The notes beneath the pieces were generated by a model. That model worked only from the letters and a program-made list of their open reading frames with translations. It did no database searches and was not told where the DNA came from. The position numbers and the translations under genes are program-made. A DNA stretch of 38,976 bases from an uncultured Verrucomicrobiales bacterium (GTDB taxonomy: Bacteria; Verrucomicrobiota; Verrucomicrobiia; Verrucomicrobiales; DEV007): assembly GCA_937891465.1 (NCBI GenBank), contig CALAHF010000195.1, forward strand, positions 1-38,976, in the 5' to 3' direction. Below, piece after piece: positions 11,051-23,409 of this stretch; within the stretch, counting starts at the first letter, position 1; every line of letters starts with the position of its first letter.

Positions 11051-11605
11051 ATGGGTAACTACAGCTGGCTTTACTTTGCACTCGGAACCGTCATCACCTG
11101 GGGGCTTTACGGGATTCTGCTTCACTCGGGCCAGATCAAAATGGCGGACTCGGTCAATGGGCGCTACAAGGCATTTTTGTTCGTCGGTATCGCCTATTTC
11201 CTCACGGCGGTTTTGGCTCCGTTGGCAATTTTACTCTATAAAAAAGCGAGCTGGGATTACCCTTACGAGGGAATGAAGCTGTCGCTGATCGCTGGAATTC
11301 TCGGTGCGATTGGTGCGTTTTTTGTGCTGCTTTCGCTCGGCGCGTTGTTTGGCCAGGGAAATAAAAGCGCTCCGGCAATCGTCATGTCGATCATCTTCGC
11401 AGGTGCTCCGGTGGTGAATGCAATTGTCTCGATCGCGCTTCATCCACCAGCAGGAGGCCTTGCATCGATCAAATGGCAGTTCGTTGTTGGAATTTTGATG
11501 GCCGCTGCCGGTGGCTGTTTGGTGACCGTCTTCAAGCCTGGCGGTGCACCTCCGGCGAAAAAGGCCGTTGTTGCTGCTCAGATTGACGACTCAGCCAAGT
11601 CCTGA
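11051..11605 (+). CDS. DMT-type (EamA-like) multispanning membrane protein
   Basis: The 184-residue protein has about five membrane helices, beginning with YSWLYFALGTVITWGLYGILL and ending near KWQFVVGILMAAAGGCLVTVF, then a basic and polar tail in the cytoplasm. The Gly/Ala-rich helices and last-helix pattern resemble one half of a drug/metabolite transporter, so it may dimerise. The substrate is unknown. The ATG at 11051 is preferred to an in-frame TTG at 11042. The last 28 bases overlap the 3' end of the convergent hybrid kinase gene. Confidence 0.6.
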   Translation: MGNYSWLYFALGTVITWGLYGILLHSGQIKMADSVNGRYKAFLFVGIAYFLTAVLAPLAILLYKKASWDYPYEGMKLSLIAGILGAIGAFFVLLSLGALFGQGNKSAPAIVMSIIFAGAPVVNAIVSIALHPPAGGLASIKWQFVVGILMAAAGGCLVTVFKPGGAPPAKKAVVAAQIDDSAKS

Positions 11606-14082
11606 TTTCCGGAAGCTGGTCGAGTTTTTCCCAGTGCGCGATTGACGATTTCGACCAATTCGCGAGGGGCATACGGTTTCGGTAACACATCACAGAATCC
11701 GAATTGCTCGGGTTCTGCCATGGCGGCTGCATCCGAGTAGCCACTCGAAACGATAGCGACTACATCGGGATCAATCCGACGAAGCGCGCGAATCGTTTCG
11801 ACGCCGCCCACTCCACCTTCGATGGTGAGATCGGAGACAAGCAGATCAAAACGTCGGCCAAAAGCCATCGCTTCGCGATATTTCAAAATCGTGTCGCGGC
11901 CATCGGCGGTTTCGACAACTTCGTGACCCGCACGAGTGAGCGTGACTCGCATCAGGCGGCTGATCGACTGCTCATCTTCCAAAATCAGGATTTTCCCCGG
12001 GCCAACTTTTTCGGGAATGGCTTTCGATTTACCTTCGGATTTCAGATTCAATCCGGGGCGTTCGCTGACTTTGAATGGAGCGGTCAGCGGCATGCAAAAT
12101 GTTGCGATGGTCCCGCGGTCTTCTTTCGACTGCAAAGCAACAAATCCGTCGTGCGCTTTGGCGATTGATTCGCAGACAGTTAGCCCAATGCCCGTTGCGT
12201 TGTCGCTGCGGCGGGTGGTGAAATAAGGATCGAATGCTCGTTCGAGAGTAATGGGATCCATTCCGTGACCAGTATCGATCACTTCGATCAGCAGGTGTTT
12301 TTGTTCGGCGTTCCCAAGTTCCCCCCGCAGCTGACAGACCTCATCGCTGTCGATAATTCCGCAGCGGGTGATCAAAACACCCCCTTCCGGCATCGCTTCC
12401 TCGGCATTGGCGATTAGATTTTCAACCAACCGATGAACCTGTGAGGCATCGAGGTAAGCGGTCATTTTTGGATCGCCGCACTGAAACTGATAGCGAATCA
12501 TCGGATGCGCTTCGCGTCGCTCCGCAAGGACATCTCGAATGATCTGGGGTGGCGTCACAAAATCGCGAACCGGTTTTCCGCCGCGTGCGAACGTCATCAA
12601 TTGCTGTACGAGGCTCTGGGCGCGTGAGGCAGCTGATTGAGCTTCGGCGAGGCTGTTTTGAAGTTCAGAATCGTCCTCGTGCCGTTCTTTTGCGAAGCTC
12701 AAATTTCCTGTGAGAGTCGTCAGGTGATTGTTGAAATCGTGAGCAAAACCGCGAGCCAAGAGTGAGAGTCCTTCGAGCCGCTGTTGGCGAATCTGTTCGG
12801 ACTGCTGTTGTTTTCGATCCGAAATATCGCGGAACAAGGCCATTGTGCCGTTTCCGCTGCGGTAGGTGCGGACTTCGTGCCAGATATCGCGTTCGGTATC
12901 GTGAAATTCGAAAACGTGGCGGCGTCCGGAGTCTGCCGATTTTTGGAAATCGAGCCGGTATCGAAGGCGGTCTTCCGGTCCAAAGGCTTCCCAAAAATCA
13001 CGTCCGATCAACGGTGTTGCACCGCCAAACCATGCAAGAGCTTCGGCGTTGCCGTAGGCGATTTTTCCGTCCTCATCGATAGTGATGATGGGATCTCCAA
13101 TATCATCGACTTTGGGAGCTTCACTGGATGGCGTTGCTTCGTCCTTAAGCTCCGAATTTTCAGCGGCTGGCTGCGTTCCACCAGAGGCTTTAAAGCCAAG
13201 CAGTTCCCGAAAAGAAGCGCTCTTCGACATGCGCGCTGCGGTTTCAAGGGCTCGACCACGAGCGGGCGGTTCGCCTTTTTCTGAAACGAGATTGGCTGGA
13301 GTCGCCTCAATATCGGCGGCCGGTTCAGTTTCGTCGCCCGTGTAGATGACTGTCAGTAAGCCGAGAGCGTCTCCTCCGGAATTACGAATGGGAACCGTGC
13401 GTTCGCGGATTTCGGTTTCCTCGCCACTTCGGTTGAGAAGCGTCGCTTCATGAAATCCATTGTTGTGCCGGGTGGTCGAATTTTCTCCGTTTTCGCGAAG
13501 CGAAACCACTTCTCGAAGGCGATGACCGATGGCGTCTGCTTCAGTCCAACCAGTTAAACTTTCAGCTCGCTGATTCATCAGCGTCACCCGGCCATCAATA
13601 TCTGAAGCAACCACGGCATTCTCAATCGAAGCCGCAACCGTTCGAATATTGATTTCGCAATCGACCAATTCGCGCTGCGATTTGCCTCGTTCCGCCGCGG
13701 CAAAAAGACAGGCAGCGACTTCACCATCGCCGAAAGGCTTTCTCAGATAGCCGACGGGACGGGCTTCGCGGGCCTCGGCAAAAATCGCGTCTTCTGAGTA
13801 ACCGGTTAAAAAAACTACGGGGATAGCGAATTTTTCTCGAAGCTGAATCGCCAACTCGATACCGTTCATTTCGCCGGTCAATTTAATATCGAGCACCGCC
13901 AGATCAGGCTTCATCCGTTCCGCTAATTCTAAGGCAACGATTCCCGACTCGGCCATTCCAACCACATCAATACCCTGCCGCTTCACGGTCGCCTCTAGAT
14001 TGAGCGCGGTGATGTGGTCGTCTTCCACGATGAGAATCGAAATCGATTCATCATCAGTGGGCATGTTTTGAGACTCCGACAT
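11578..14082 (-). CDS. Hybrid histidine kinase: REC-PAS-PAS-HisKA-HATPase-REC
   Basis: The 834-residue cytoplasmic protein opens with a receiver domain (about 15-130; phosphoacceptor D65 in AVLDIKL, Lys in YLRKPF). Two PAS domains follow (about 150-265 and 325-430), then a dimerisation helix with the phospho-His in ARGFAHDFNNHLTTL. The HATPase domain is intact (N box ENLIANAEEA, G1 DTGHGM, G2 TGIGL). A C-terminal receiver has D751 in LLVSDL and Lys in LPKPYAP. There is no membrane segment. FAHDFNN is typical of NtrB-like and phytochrome-related hybrid kinases. The upstream four-PAS gene is 20 bp away on the same strand, so the two are probably co-transcribed and may exchange phosphate. No DNA-binding output domain is in the pair. 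Confidence 0.92.
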   Translation of the reverse strand: MSESQNMPTDDESISILIVEDDHITALNLEATVKRQGIDVVGMAESGIVALELAERMKPDLAVLDIKLTGEMNGIELAIQLREKFAIPVVFLTGYSEDAIFAEAREARPVGYLRKPFGDGEVAACLFAAAERGKSQRELVDCEINIRTVAASIENAVVASDIDGRVTLMNQRAESLTGWTEADAIGHRLREVVSLRENGENSTTRHNNGFHEATLLNRSGEETEIRERTVPIRNSGGDALGLLTVIYTGDETEPAADIEATPANLVSEKGEPPARGRALETAARMSKSASFRELLGFKASGGTQPAAENSELKDEATPSSEAPKVDDIGDPIITIDEDGKIAYGNAEALAWFGGATPLIGRDFWEAFGPEDRLRYRLDFQKSADSGRRHVFEFHDTERDIWHEVRTYRSGNGTMALFRDISDRKQQQSEQIRQQRLEGLSLLARGFAHDFNNHLTTLTGNLSFAKERHEDDSELQNSLAEAQSAASRAQSLVQQLMTFARGGKPVRDFVTPPQIIRDVLAERREAHPMIRYQFQCGDPKMTAYLDASQVHRLVENLIANAEEAMPEGGVLITRCGIIDSDEVCQLRGELGNAEQKHLLIEVIDTGHGMDPITLERAFDPYFTTRRSDNATGIGLTVCESIAKAHDGFVALQSKEDRGTIATFCMPLTAPFKVSERPGLNLKSEGKSKAIPEKVGPGKILILEDEQSISRLMRVTLTRAGHEVVETADGRDTILKYREAMAFGRRFDLLVSDLTIEGGVGGVETIRALRRIDPDVVAIVSSGYSDAAAMAEPEQFGFCDVLPKPYAPRELVEIVNRALGKTRPASGNQDLAESSI

Positions 14083-14103: not shown

Positions 14104-16923
14104 CTATGACTCGTCTCCGAGCTTCACTCCACTGGAAATTATCACGCTGAGAGCTTGGGTGCCTCCATTTTGCGTCATTTGCATTCGTCCACGCAATTGC
14201 TGAACGAGATTTTTCAGAGAACCGAGTGAGGTATCCTTCGCTTTCGGAAAGAGAACGCCCCCTGCTCCTGAAGTGGCTACGAGAGAAAGTTCGCTGCCAC
14301 TTTTCTTCTTCAGCTGAAGAAATAACTCTGGACCATCGCCGCGAACTTCACGTTTCATCGAAAGCCGGATGATTTCACCAACCATCAAACTGAAAGCGGT
14401 CGCCATTTCGGCATCGACTCGAAACGAATCGCTTCCGTGAACCACGACTTCGCGTCGACCGGGGCCACGACCTGTCACCGCTGAAACCTCGTCAGAAATC
14501 GATCGAATTAACGGAACAATCCACACCGTGTCGTCCTGTGGGTACTGATGTGCATGAGCCTGAGCTATCGCCCGAAGCCGAACCTGCCAGCGGTTTCCGG
14601 CGTCCAGCTTGTCGTCCATTTCGTCATGGTCATTTTCCAGCGCAAACAGGCTCGTCACCATTTGCAGCTGATTGCGAAAGCGGTGCTGCATCTTTTCGTG
14701 TTCCAGGTCACTGCTACCCTTTTTAGCGGCTGAAGGTGGCAAATTAGGAATTGAGTGGTGCTCTTTCTTAACGACTTCGCGATGCACTGCGAGGAGTTCC
14801 TTCGGTCCGGAATCCCCTTTAACCGACGAGAAATTCAATTCAGCAACCCCGCGAGATCCATCCTTGCGGTAGAATTTATTTCTTCCCTGCCAGCTGCCAT
14901 TCTTATTGAGCGCTGCAGAGAGTTTGTGATTGAATTCTTTCGCCGTGGATTCGTCGCGGGAATAAAGCTTCGCAATTCCTCTCCCCAACAAATCCACTCG
15001 TTTGTAGCCAAAGACAGATTCTGCGGCAGGATTGGCGTCGCGGATCGTTCCTCGTAAATCGGTGACCAACACAGGTTCTTCGATTTTTTCGATGGCAGTC
15101 GCGTGCCAGTTGCTGCCCGCCTTTTTCAAAGCCTCGAACTCACTCGTGTCTTTAACCGTGACGAGATAACGTTCATTTTCGCACGGAGCGATTGCGAAAC
15201 GAAACGTGGAGCCGCCTTCGTTAAATTCCAAATCAGTAACAACAGTTGTTTCCGAATTTGCTTTGTGCGCTTGTGCCGCGAGCTCTTTTCCAAATTCAGG
15301 CCAGACCGTCCCTACTTCTTCTCCACGCCATGTTTTCTGAGGCATTTTGCCCGACCAATTAACAGTTGGCGGGGCCACATCGATGATTTTCAGTTGTCCA
15401 TCAACGAGCAAAATTAAATCGGGCATGAGATTCATCAACGCCATGTTTTGCTGATGACTTTGGCGAAGCTCGGCTTCAAGTTTTGGATCGGAAGCTGGTT
15501 GAACCGGGGGTGTAGGTGCATGGCTGGATGAGACATCCCCTTTCGGCATTTCGAGAAAATACATTCCCATTCTCGTTTTGCCTTCATCATCCCGAATCGG
15601 ACAAAGCGTTAGTCGATTAGTCGGCAGCGTTACGGAGGATTCGCCATCGCGTTGAAATCGGACTTCGATTGAATCATTTCCACGCTGGTTTGCCTTCGAT
15701 CCCGCCGCGATTTTTTCTTCCGTCGCCCTCAGCCGAAGGGCATCTTGCGGCACAAGGCAATCGGACAAAGTCATCCGGCGGAGTTCGTTCACTGATTTTC
15801 CAACAAACGCTTCGAAAACCGGATTCGCATCGAGGATGCCACCGCTTCGATCCACCAAAAGTAGGCCGCCGGGATTATTCTGAAAAACTGCCCGAAATTT
15901 CTTTTCGCCCATTTTGAGCTGGCTTTCATTACGCCGACGTTCGGTCACGTCGGTCTGGGTTAGGAGTAGGCCTCCGTCATCCATCAGTTGGGCGGAAAAT
16001 TCGATTTCCCGTAATTTTTGATCCGCAGATCTCAGTGAAAAAGTCCGCGTGAGTTGCTTGCGCCAGATATGCTCACGCCACGAATTCAACACCCGCGCGG
16101 CGTATTCCGCATTGGGGCACGTATTTTCCAGCCACTCTTCGATTCCTCCAAAGTTTTCGACACTGACGCCCAGCAAATTTTGATGAGCACTATTTACGTA
16201 GATGACGTCTTGCTGAGAATTGAAAACAACCAAGCCCATTGGAAGAGCGTCCGGAATTCGTTGCCATGGAAAATCAGTTTCTGAATTGTCGCGTTGGTCC
16301 AAGCGACTCATTCTAAATGGCTCCGTTATCGAGCCAGCTCGCGAAACGGTTACTCGCGACGTTGTTTCGGATTCAATCACGGGCGACGGAATCGCCACAC
16401 TCGTTTGAGTCGGTGGAGTCGGCTGCGAAACGGGAGCCGCGATGGGTTCTGGTTTCGAGAGTGGGATTGGAGTGGGTTCCACCGGTTTTGTGGCCACCGG
16501 AGTAGATTGAAGCTGCGGTTTAGCCTCGGGCTCTGGCTGAGCCGGTTTTGCTGCCTCAAACACAGACGTCGGTGCGATCGGGGGCTGTTGAAGTGGTTTA
16601 GCCTGGGGCTCTGGCTGAGTCGGTTTTGCAGCCTGAAACACAGATACTGGTGCAATTGGGGCCTCTTGAGGTGGTTTAGCCTCTAGCTCTGGCTGAGCTG
16701 GTTTTGCAGCCTGAAATACAGATGCTGGTGCGATTGGGGCCTGTTGTTGCGGTGGAGCCGGTGGTATGTAAGCAGTCTCTGGCTGCAACTGCGGCTGGAT
16801 TACGGGAGCCACTGGTTGCTGAGATGCAACGTGGGGCTGCAAAGGCACTGCATCCCCTCGCGAAGAGGATGATTCATCGTTTCTGCCCGAAGCAGAATGA
16901 TGCGGCTGTTGTGGCGTGGACAA
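14104..16923 (-). CDS. Four-PAS HisKA_2-type sensor with degenerate ATPase domain
   Basis: The 939-residue protein has a disordered Pro/Gln/Ala-rich head (1-200) with three 26-residue tandem repeats (62-139). Four PAS-like domains follow (about 220-330, 340-460, 495-600, 605-720), and then a HisKA_2-type motif HRFRNQLQMVTSLF with H747. The ATPase-like end keeps TSLGSLKNLVQQLRGRM, but the N box reads GEIIRLSMKR (849-858) instead of N-E-L-x-x-N, and the G1 region reads TSGAG (884-888) instead of D-x-G-x-G. ATP binding is therefore doubtful. It has no membrane segment. Translation seems to begin at TTG (16923), as no in-frame ATG lies upstream and the next Met is past residue 200. It precedes the hybrid kinase gene in a likely operon. 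Confidence 0.85.
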   Translation of the reverse strand: MSTPQQPHHSASGRNDESSSSRGDAVPLQPHVASQQPVAPVIQPQLQPETAYIPPAPPQQQAPIAPASVFQAAKPAQPELEAKPPQEAPIAPVSVFQAAKPTQPEPQAKPLQQPPIAPTSVFEAAKPAQPEPEAKPQLQSTPVATKPVEPTPIPLSKPEPIAAPVSQPTPPTQTSVAIPSPVIESETTSRVTVSRAGSITEPFRMSRLDQRDNSETDFPWQRIPDALPMGLVVFNSQQDVIYVNSAHQNLLGVSVENFGGIEEWLENTCPNAEYAARVLNSWREHIWRKQLTRTFSLRSADQKLREIEFSAQLMDDGGLLLTQTDVTERRRNESQLKMGEKKFRAVFQNNPGGLLLVDRSGGILDANPVFEAFVGKSVNELRRMTLSDCLVPQDALRLRATEEKIAAGSKANQRGNDSIEVRFQRDGESSVTLPTNRLTLCPIRDDEGKTRMGMYFLEMPKGDVSSSHAPTPPVQPASDPKLEAELRQSHQQNMALMNLMPDLILLVDGQLKIIDVAPPTVNWSGKMPQKTWRGEEVGTVWPEFGKELAAQAHKANSETTVVTDLEFNEGGSTFRFAIAPCENERYLVTVKDTSEFEALKKAGSNWHATAIEKIEEPVLVTDLRGTIRDANPAAESVFGYKRVDLLGRGIAKLYSRDESTAKEFNHKLSAALNKNGSWQGRNKFYRKDGSRGVAELNFSSVKGDSGPKELLAVHREVVKKEHHSIPNLPPSAAKKGSSDLEHEKMQHRFRNQLQMVTSLFALENDHDEMDDKLDAGNRWQVRLRAIAQAHAHQYPQDDTVWIVPLIRSISDEVSAVTGRGPGRREVVVHGSDSFRVDAEMATAFSLMVGEIIRLSMKREVRGDGPELFLQLKKKSGSELSLVATSGAGGVLFPKAKDTSLGSLKNLVQQLRGRMQMTQNGGTQALSVIISSGVKLGDES
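16507..16740 (-). repeat. 78-bp tandem repeat, three copies, inside the PAS sensor gene
   Basis: Three head-to-tail copies encode the 26-residue module (A/P)-P-I-A-P-x-S-V-F-(Q/E)-A-A-K-P-x-Q-P-E, followed by a linker ending in A-K-P. The copies differ by point changes, and some of these are third-codon changes, so the array has been kept in frame for some time. Copy number could vary between strains by slippage. Confidence 0.85.
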
Positions 16924-18390: not shown

Positions 18391-18990
18391 ATGAATGCAA
18401 ACTCCCCCATTAATGTTGTAAAACCCGTCTACGATGACGAAAGTGATGCCAAAGCCCTTAGTGGCATTGCCAATGGTGATCGTGGTTGTTTCCTGCAGTT
18501 GCACGATCGCTATGATGGTTTGCTGTTTACCACGATTCAGAAAGTACTGAATGATCGGCAGGATTCTGAAGAGGTGTTGCAGGAGGTTTTTGCGGCTTTG
18601 TGGCGCAAGGCGCATCTCTTTAATCAAGGGCGCGGACGTCCAATAACATGGATGGCATCCATGGCTCGAAACCGGGCGATCGACCGACTGCGTTCCAAGC
18701 AGCGCCGGGCCCGCTTGCGGGATGAGTTTACCGTCGAACAAGATGTGAACCCTGCGGCAAACGAAGCAATTTCAGGCCCCGAAGCGGCAGATCGTCGGGA
18801 TAGCTGCGCGAGCGTTCGAATCGCTGTGAAATCACTGACCGATGTGCAACGGGAAGCAATTGAATTGGCGTATTTTGAGGGGATGACGCAGCTGGAAATT
18901 GCTGATCGCCTTGGCGAGCCGCTCGGCACGGTGAAAGCCCGCATTCGTCGCGGGATTTCAAAGTTGCGGACCGTGGTTCATAAAAATTGA
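18391..18990 (+). CDS. ECF-type RNA polymerase sigma factor
   Basis: The 199-residue protein has sigma region 2 (about 30-100; VLQEVFAALWRKAHLFNQGRGRPITWMASMARNRAIDRLRSKQRR, with the -10 recognition helix) and sigma region 4 (about 140-198; VQREAIELAYFEGMTQLEIADRLGEPLGTVKARIRRGISKL, a helix-turn-helix for the -35 element). The linker is of normal length and no extra sensory domain is present. It resembles the SigK/RpoE-like group. No anti-sigma gene is adjacent: the next gene encodes a secreted protein with no cytoplasmic anti-sigma domain. Control is therefore unclear; a promoter and an inverted repeat lie just upstream. Confidence 0.93.
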   Translation: MNANSPINVVKPVYDDESDAKALSGIANGDRGCFLQLHDRYDGLLFTTIQKVLNDRQDSEEVLQEVFAALWRKAHLFNQGRGRPITWMASMARNRAIDRLRSKQRRARLRDEFTVEQDVNPAANEAISGPEAADRRDSCASVRIAVKSLTDVQREAIELAYFEGMTQLEIADRLGEPLGTVKARIRRGISKLRTVVHKN

Positions 18991-21230: not shown

Positions 21231-22271
21231 ATGCCTCCCAACGAGCTCAATTCGTTTACAGATTTCTGCTACCTCTTCCTCAGTATCGTGCTGGAAGGGG
21301 CTCCTTTTATTTTCTTTGGAACGCTGGTTTCAGGAATTATCGACGCTTATTTGCCGCCTGGTCTGATTGACAAGTGGCTGCCGAAAAATAAGTGGCTCGC
21401 GGTCATCATGAGTGCCTTGCTCGGCGCGATTTTTCCAGTTTGTGAGTGTGCCATCGTACCGGTTATCCGTCGCCTAATCAAAAAAGGCTTGCCGATTTCT
21501 TGCGCGATCACCTACATGCTTGCGGCACCGATCATCAATCCGATCACGATCATCAGTACGATGAATGCGTTCAATGACAGTGCTGGCAAGTCGGAGTTGC
21601 TTTCGGCGATGACGAAAGATTCATCACAAGCGTTGTTTGTGACTTCGAGCCGTTTGCTGATCGCGTTCATCGTTACGGTGGGTGTTGGATTTGTGGTGAT
21701 GAAAATCCGAACGAGTTCGATTTTGCGGCCCTCTTTGATTTCAGAAAAAGAGAAAAGTGATCACGAACACGATCACAGTCATGACGATGCTGGGGAAAAG
21801 CCCGACAAATTGGTTCAGGCAATGCGGACGGCGCTTCGCGACTTTGTTGAAACGGCGATGTATTTTACCATTGGTGTCGCAATCACCGCTTTGTTTAAGG
21901 CTTACGTGACGGATTCGATGATCATTGCGTTCAACCAGAGCGAATATATCGGAGTGAACTTGATGATGATTCTCGCTTTCGTGCTCAGCTTGTGCAGCAC
22001 GTCAGATGCATTCATCGCTGCGAATTTCCCCGTGCCTCTTTCTGCAAAGTTAGCATTTCTCGTCTTCGGTCCGATGATGGATGTGAAGCTCGTCTTTATG
22101 TATTTGTCGGTCTTCAAAAAGAAGTTCGTTCTTTCTCTGGGCATTGGTTTGTTCATCGCAATCGGAGCTCTGTGTTACGTTTGGAGCGATTACAAACCTG
22201 AGGTCAAAAAGGCGGGAGCCTTTCCGGGAGCCGCTTTAATTGAAGATAGCCCTACGATCCAACAGGGTTGA
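21231..22271 (+). CDS. DUF318 (ArsP/YraQ-type) permease
   Basis: This 346-residue integral membrane protein has about eight helices in two repeats. The first repeat carries the conserved GAIFPVCECAIVPVIRRLIKKGLP and YMLAAPIINPITIIST; the second carries SLCSTSDAFIAANF and FLVFGPMMDVKL. The Cys in CEC and the paired Asn-Pro turns are family hallmarks. A cytoplasmic loop (about 175-195) holds a small His/Asp cluster. ArsP relatives export trivalent organoarsenicals, while the YcgR subgroup pairs with a TIGR03943 subunit, as here. The gene's last codons (P-T-I-Q-Q-G) and TGA stop lie within or at the edge of a palindromic element, so its natural C terminus has probably been replaced. Confidence 0.87.
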   Translation: MPPNELNSFTDFCYLFLSIVLEGAPFIFFGTLVSGIIDAYLPPGLIDKWLPKNKWLAVIMSALLGAIFPVCECAIVPVIRRLIKKGLPISCAITYMLAAPIINPITIISTMNAFNDSAGKSELLSAMTKDSSQALFVTSSRLLIAFIVTVGVGFVVMKIRTSSILRPSLISEKEKSDHEHDHSHDDAGEKPDKLVQAMRTALRDFVETAMYFTIGVAITALFKAYVTDSMIIAFNQSEYIGVNLMMILAFVLSLCSTSDAFIAANFPVPLSAKLAFLVFGPMMDVKLVFMYLSVFKKKFVLSLGIGLFIAIGALCYVWSDYKPEVKKAGAFPGAALIEDSPTIQQG

Positions 22272-22298
22272 TTCATCGAACAGACCCTATTGGATCGT
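22254..22298 (-). repeat. Single 45-bp palindromic element unit
   Basis: The best unit of the family after 28374. Left arm ACGATCCAACAGGGT and right arm ACCCTATTGGATCGT are complementary at 14 of 15 positions around the 15-nt loop TGATTCATCGAACAG. It contains the permease stop codon (22269-22271) and lies 28 bp before the start of the partner gene. As RNA it would form a strong hairpin between the two cistrons. Confidence 0.92.
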
Positions 22299-22326
22299 AA
22301 AATCGAAAACCACGACGACTGAAATT

Positions 22327-23409
22327 ATGAATTTAAAACGAGCGATGCAGTTTCTCTCTATCTTCGCGCTGATGGTGTGGGGAGGCGTTTTCGTCTATTT
22401 TTATCTCACGCCGGCGGAAGACGGCACCGGGCCTTTGATTCAAAAATACGTCAACGCGAATAAGAACTTTGATCTCTGGGTGCTGATCGCTGGGATGGGA
22501 CTCTTTGTGTTGGCGATTTTCAACGTGATCACTTTCAAGCAAAAGTCAGGCATTTGTAATCACGATCACTCTCATGGAGACGAATGCGACCATGATCACG
22601 ATCATCAGGATCATCACGATGACCACAGTGATGATGACCACGTTCACACCGAAGCCTGCGATCACGGGCATGACCATGATCACGACCACAGCGACGGTCA
22701 TGACCATGGTGAAGAACACAACCATGACCACGAGCAGACCACGGCTGGATTGGCATTTTCGATCTTAATCCTCGTCGTTCCTGTTCTGGTGGCTGCGAAT
22801 TATTCGCAGGGTAAATTCAGCCCCGATTACTTTCGCAAGTTGACGCAAATCGAAAGCAAGATGCGGGCGATGGAAATTGAGAAGAACGGCGGAATCGTCG
22901 TTCAGCAAACCACGATGGCTGAGGTTAAAGCGGCCGAGGAGAAGGCGGCTAAGACTGCGGACACGCCTCCGGATCCAAGTAATGAGGCCACCACTGATGT
23001 CGCTTCATTTACGATGGAGGATTTGAAGAAAATGGTTCCTCAAAACGATGCGGGAAGTTTCATGCTCGAAGTCCCCGAAATTTATTACACCGCAGGTGAC
23101 CAGCAGCTGATGAAGGTGCTTGAAGGTGTGCCGGTTGAGTTCACTGCCCAGGTGATGAACGAAACGGTGAACAACGAAGCTGGTAATCGCCTCCGCGCGT
23201 TTCGACTGCTGGTGGAGTGCTGCGCGGCTGATGCTCGGCCGATTTCGATGTCGCTGGAATTTAGCGAAAAACCACCAGAGTTCGAAGAGATGGGCTGGTT
23301 CAAAATGACCGGCAAGCTCCACTACGCCAAGGAAAATGACGAGTGGGTGCCGATGCTGCGGGTCATGGAATTTAATCAGACCGCTGAGCAGATAGAGATG
23401 CTTTACTGA
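22327..23409 (+). CDS. DUF1980/TIGR03943 permease subunit with His-rich loop
   Basis: The start at 22327 (MNLKRAMQFLS) gives 360 residues; a longer upstream frame would read through the palindromic element and is unlikely. Two membrane helices (about 8-27 and 50-69) precede a loop (79-136) packed with about twenty His and many Asp/Glu (repeated H-D-H), then a third helix (about 141-157). The C-terminal soluble domain (about 240-360) has ECCAADARPISMSLEF and GWFKMTGKL, typical of DUF1980. The family is the partner of DUF318 permeases (YcgQ with YcgR). The loop should bind zinc, nickel or copper, which suggests metal handling (inference). The loop is not part of the usual family core. Confidence 0.87.
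   Translation: MNLKRAMQFLSIFALMVWGGVFVYFYLTPAEDGTGPLIQKYVNANKNFDLWVLIAGMGLFVLAIFNVITFKQKSGICNHDHSHGDECDHDHDHQDHHDDHSDDDHVHTEACDHGHDHDHDHSDGHDHGEEHNHDHEQTTAGLAFSILILVVPVLVAANYSQGKFSPDYFRKLTQIESKMRAMEIEKNGGIVVQQTTMAEVKAAEEKAAKTADTPPDPSNEATTDVASFTMEDLKKMVPQNDAGSFMLEVPEIYYTAGDQQLMKVLEGVPVEFTAQVMNETVNNEAGNRLRAFRLLVECCAADARPISMSLEFSEKPPEFEEMGWFKMTGKLHYAKENDEWVPMLRVMEFNQTAEQIEMLY

Follow-up and report, generated by a model that had tools for sequence, protein, structure and literature searches.

A four-PAS histidine kinase homologue without ATP-site motifs keeps its phospho-acceptor histidine beside a conserved hybrid kinase in Verrucomicrobiales

Few pseudokinases of bacterial two-component systems have been studied (PMC5361649). 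The same source describes DivL of Caulobacter as a PAS-bearing pseudokinase that works with the hybrid kinase CckA and has a tyrosine in place of the phospho-acceptor histidine, a precedent for a pseudokinase that steers a hybrid kinase (PMC5361649). ChpT, also from Caulobacter, acts after CckA; it has a dimeric DHp domain with an atypical Bergerat domain and a remodelled ATP lid, and autophosphorylation is impossible for it (PMC3433190). PhyT (formerly PhyP), from the general stress response of Sphingomonas melonis, was initially taken for a phosphatase; it had no phosphatase activity when tested, relays phosphoryl through its histidine in vitro, has a membrane anchor and a putative sensor in the periplasm, is encoded at the phyR locus and is suspected by its authors to derive from a histidine kinase (PMC5898713). 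The same paper names Spo0B of Bacillus, a kinase-like phosphotransferase, as a precedent (PMC5898713). Among the papers listed by our literature searches on Verrucomicrobia, HisKA_2 or Prosthecobacter, we found no description of the gene pair analyzed here.

The pair lies in a window of 38,976 nucleotides, which is the whole stretch of DNA analyzed, from an uncultured Verrucomicrobiales bacterium. Protein A (939 aa; 14104..16923), a four-PAS HisKA_2 pseudokinase by the ORF list, Pfam and an AlphaFold model, and protein B, a hybrid kinase of 834 aa (11578..14082), are encoded in tandem on the minus strand, as are all of their features given below, with B directly downstream and 21 bases between them. 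The A gene starts with TTG and has no clear ribosome-binding site upstream; the start is the only uncertain point of this reading frame and does not affect the domains. The N-terminal tail is rich in proline and glutamine and contains 2.9 copies of a 78-bp (26-aa) tandem repeat (16517..16746). The encoded units, about three 26-residue copies, contain SVFxAA; in several relatives the tail of A carries one comparable motif, NVFxxP, which is possibly a docking motif.

The AlphaFold model, which spans residues 205-939 with a mean pLDDT of 83.6, contains four separate PAS folds, in agreement with the earlier note, which had proposed four PAS domains. With boundaries taken from the secondary structure of the model, they cover residues of about 221-325 (15949..16263; Pfam PAS_7 at 227-333), 349-458 (15550..15879), 480-592 (15148..15486) and 606-716 (14776..15108; model and Pfam), and Pfam also reports PAS_4 in four stretches of A. 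In a hydropathy scan of A, the Kyte-Doolittle mean over 19 residues peaks at 1.3, and no membrane helix was detected. Pfam reported no DNA-binding domain in A or B, in line with the previous suggestion that neither protein has a DNA-binding output.

The PAS domains are followed by a DHp hairpin of the HisKA_2 family (about residues 737-791; 14551..14715; Pfam and models). H747, at the phospho-acceptor position (codon 14683..14685), sits within HRFRNQLQ, with N751 at H+4 (codon 14671-14673), and the Pfam match to PF07568 (residues 745-803; 29.6 bits against a cut-off of 22.3) bears out the claim of an intact HisKA_2 motif. The C-terminal CA domain (about 799-935; 14119..14529), recognized from the model and fold matches, is predicted to retain a Bergerat-like fold (C-terminal part pLDDT 83.7, pTM 0.79) without ATP-site motifs. 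As the earlier note had read from the letters, the former N box, GEIIRLSMKR (residues 849-858; 14350..14379), has neither asparagine, and T884 replaces the aspartate of the former G1 box, ATSGAGG (residues 883-889; 14257..14277). With the N-box asparagines and the G1 aspartate gone, A does not qualify as an active HisKA_2 kinase. Pfam detected no HATPase family in A at E<=1, in the same search that returned HATPase_c in B at 1.6e-17. In a sister species, whose A protein is 51% identical in the aligned region, both boxes are degraded in like manner (GEILRLALQR, ATPGAGG), so the degraded site is not an assembly error.

B has the domain order REC-PAS-PAS-HisKA-HATPase-REC by Pfam and is, as had been proposed, an intact hybrid kinase with receivers at both ends. 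REC1 occupies residues 16-122 (Asp65; 13717..14037), the HisKA domain residues 441-501 (His448; 12580..12762) and the HATPase_c domain, with intact N, G1 and G2 boxes, residues 545-667 (12082..12450); REC2, with Asp751, lies at 11644..11991. Across 114 complete copies (at least 700 aa long), His448, both N-box asparagines, the G1 aspartate, the G2 glycine, and Asp751 and the lysine of REC2 are invariant (114/114). The REC1 aspartate, by comparison, is D in 90 copies, N in 10, S in 7, L in 3, and G and E in one each, with a gap in two.

The earlier note had asked if the two genes stay together in relatives, and they do. Relatives were recovered by a contig search with an alignment of B; a contig search with A alone recovered none. 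Those found were assemblies titled "Verrucomicrobiales bacterium" and, at a greater distance, Prosthecobacter. B is present in 67 of the 74 genomes of the window's family, in 39 of the 41 better ones and in 110 of the 240 genomes of the order, and each family genome that bears it yields no second match at the threshold chosen. Of the 60 family loci that could be tested, 58 have A next to B (in one of the 58, A is partial), after seven further loci with too little sequence were set aside; outside the family the two are adjacent in 24 of 49 loci, with two set aside. An A homologue, counted by homology, was found elsewhere in the genome in all 20 searched neighbouring-family genomes that had no adjacent A at the fetched locus; the search for unlinked A covered 26 genomes of that family, with one miss (G050). 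The subgroup of this neighbouring family in which the two genes are unlinked comprises many of its f4 loci (L126-L155). The presence of B in nearly all of the better family genomes suggests that A and B form a central signalling pair in Verrucomicrobiales.

Across the 81 loci that were compared, no other neighbour of the pair recurs in more than 15. An ECF sigma factor gene lies near A in the window (18391-18990); a link to the pair was rejected because it is not a conserved neighbour in these loci. At 21231-23409, an ArsP-type permease precedes a protein that combines long His/Asp-rich stretches with a C-terminal DUF1980 domain, perhaps a metal-handling pair.

We read the motifs of A in 93 proteins, 92 of which were paired with their own B; L070 was left out because its paired B is absent, and in L103 REC1 was unreadable. 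The histidine is present with both ATP-site residues in 21 of the 92, with neither in 33 and with one in 5, and it is absent from the remaining 33, among which 15 have both ATP-site residues, 11 have one and 7 have neither. Apparent residues in L059 and L066 (H) and L051 (Q) arose from misalignment where no kinase domain exists and were set to absent; in the highly diverged C-termini of g15, L043, L070 and L073 the alignment is uncertain, and a few lost-His calls could shift if the sequences were aligned differently. From this spread of states, the ancestral A was probably a complete kinase that decayed along several routes. Minimum changes on a tree of 89 pairs are seven for the histidine, five for the ATP site and eight for the REC1 aspartate. 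Reverse decay was seen in L035, L053, L061, L047, L079 and relatives, where the histidine has become Gln, Gly or Arg and the ATP-site motifs are kept. The genus g18 (L051, L059, L066) has lost the whole kinase domain of A, and the REC1 aspartate of B too; its A still adjoins B. According to the earlier note, its reading would be refuted if orthologues had the usual N box and G1 motif. Such orthologues, with a full ATP site, do occur elsewhere in Verrucomicrobiales, yet they reveal a derived loss, and the finding of a degraded site stands.

In the window's clade the ATP site has gone and the histidine has stayed. None of the 34 members, the window's species included, keeps the second N-box asparagine or the G1 aspartate. 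These 34 form one clade in the tree of the B kinase core (most recent common ancestor with 36 tips, support 0.91; the two extra tips are hybrids whose A was not recovered), and all 33 of 33 members group as one clade in a tree from the PAS part of A alone. The ATP-site motifs were lost once, at the base of the clade. Of the 33 aligned members, 31 have H at position 747, and 31 of 34 have N at position 751; two species have serine at both positions and one has lost this stretch of the DHp helix. Parsimony gives a single change at H747, against 11 in the median column, and only 8 of 205 columns have one change or fewer. Per column, the mean number of changes is 5.96 in the first DHp helix and 10.93 in the CA domain, and none of 20,000 random column sets was as low. 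This is the pattern to be expected if a phospho-accepting, receiver-docking surface were in use and the nucleotide site were not.

Retention of H747 after loss of the ATP site therefore argues against a relic and against a pure scaffold. The idea that the kinase domain of A is decaying without function draws on the repeated and varied decay across the order and on L110, where A survives only as a short frame of 287 aa; against it stand the strongly constrained H-box helix, the frames, which are long and open in almost every clade member sampled, and a new motif, GExxRL, that recurs at the former N-box position. We disfavour this reading and consider it highly improbable. Equally remote, in our estimate, is that A still phosphorylates itself by means of an unusual ATP site. 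Its Bergerat-like fold is predicted intact and E850, within the former N box, does not vary among clade members, but both asparagines and the G1 aspartate are absent throughout, the G2 glycines have been replaced, and HATPase_c matches just 10 of 35 aligned A rows, the very number of rows with intact motifs.

The earlier note had offered phosphorylation in trans or a scaffold role for A. Phosphorylation in trans fits the window's clade better, since H747 is under strong constraint there after ATP-site loss; a scaffold fits other lineages, those where the histidine or the whole kinase domain is gone. Because the DHp families differ (HisKA_2 in A, HisKA in B), A is more plausibly phosphorylated by transfer from a receiver of B than directly by the kinase domain of B. 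REC2, rather than REC1, is the likely partner of H747, because it is invariant in its key residues and more conserved within the window's clade (3.34 versus 7.35 changes per column). Six loci that keep the histidine without a REC1 aspartate (the g2 species L089, L093, L095 and L096, and also L110 and L111) argue against REC1. Both residues are lost in L052/L101, L071, L079 and relatives, and part of g15, a pattern that by eye looked like coevolution. A Pagel-type test for coevolution of the A histidine and the REC1 aspartate over 89 pairs was negative (LR 2.85, p 0.58). The suggestion that two receivers would let signals flow in either direction was thus not upheld: REC2 is invariant, and the REC1 aspartate is often lost and does not track the A histidine on the tree.

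These comparisons of sequences lead us to propose, with about an even chance of being right, that A is a PAS-gated histidine phosphotransferase derived from a dead histidine kinase and fed by REC2 of B, in the manner of PhyT, ChpT or Spo0B. The first DHp helix docks receivers in known systems. B would autophosphorylate on His448 and move the phosphoryl group to Asp751 in REC2, from which (the choice of donor receiver being a guess) H747 of A would accept it; the four PAS domains would set how well H747 docks. A would then hand the phosphoryl group to some response regulator, also a guess, or return it as a drain. A probably passes on or gates the signal of B rather than making its own.

A related alternative is that the H/N pair of A acts as a phosphatase or drain that strips phosphoryl from a B receiver. 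N751 belongs to an HRxxN-type motif, is kept with the histidine in 31 of 34 members and lost with it in two, and PhyT too was at first regarded as a phosphatase; its lack of phosphatase activity when tested (PMC5898713) counts against this reading, which we think improbable.

Receivers are numerous in the window's genome (41 matches), and no Hpt domain was found there at E<=0.1 (genome 95.6% complete, 229 contigs). The argument that a missing Hpt makes A the Hpt was weakened by Hpt matches in 35 of 74 family genomes, the sister species alone having five matches, so the missing Hpt is weak evidence. Genera g15 and g17 have no H in the members read and no Hpt match.

The histidine of A is not the obligatory outlet of B everywhere, because 33 of the 92 pairs lack it and REC2 is still invariant. 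A relay, if real, is therefore limited to some lineages. The persistence of histidine-less A beside an unchanged B points to a further role common to all lineages, most simply PAS-mediated regulation of B. Such a second, DivL-like role is likely, given that A lost its histidine or whole kinase domain elsewhere yet stayed by B. In its strong form, which we judge unlikely though less so than a phosphatase, no phosphoryl would ever pass through A; the PAS domains of A, together with its dead kinase fold, would instead attach to B or to a phosphorylated receiver and thereby switch the activity of B by allostery. A adjoins B in most lineages without the histidine and, in g18, even without a kinase domain. 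DivL has this logic with CckA (PMC5361649), and the core of B best matches CckA models, though far below the NCBIfam equivalog cut-off (204 bits against 1000). The strong form leaves the conservation of H747 and N751 after ATP-site loss unexplained, and DivL itself carries tyrosine rather than histidine.

More tentatively, with less than an even chance, one two-gene locus may have turned a kinase into different non-kinases several times (a phosphotransferase, a His-less form with ATP motifs and the g18 PAS regulator) with B unchanged. Ancestral, His-only, ATP-site-only and domain-less states of A all survive beside one invariant partner, so exchanging orthologues could show how a kinase turns into a phosphotransferase or an allosteric regulator.

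Among known systems, the nearest solved relatives of A by sequence are HisKA_2 blue-light kinases (4r39, 8.5e-18), and its best fold matches are the HisKA_2 kinases EL346 and LOV-HK (4r3a, Z 16.6; 5epv, Z 15.4). EL346 and LOV-HK are light-activated kinases with an ATP site; they share the HisKA_2 family with A, whereas in A the residues of that site are missing. The Foldseek matches also include ChpT and DivL (ChpT, 4fmt_B, E 2.8e-6, TM about 0.4), and Pfam SPOB_a matches one of 35 A rows (E 0.0028). ChpT may resemble A in its DHp and Bergerat-like fold, but A is closer to the HisKA_2 kinases; Spo0B resembles A in the proposed role of a kinase-like phosphotransferase. Neither ChpT nor Spo0B is known to have sensor domains. 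With its four PAS folds and conserved adjacency to B, A may share with DivL the partnership of a PAS-bearing pseudokinase and a hybrid kinase, a likeness of type; A has H747 where DivL has tyrosine, and is not a DivL member. PhyT is by analogy nearest to A in its proposed way of working, with a HisKA_2/HRxxN-type DHp, a retained histidine and a degenerate ATPase domain. Unlike PhyT, A has no membrane helix in the hydropathy scan, four PAS domains and a hybrid kinase as its partner. The scanned neighbouring ORFs include no PhyR-like protein and, having neither the membrane anchor nor the phyR locus, A is not a PhyT member. If the proposed relay is true, its new element is the sensing of a signal by the phosphotransferase rather than by the kinase.
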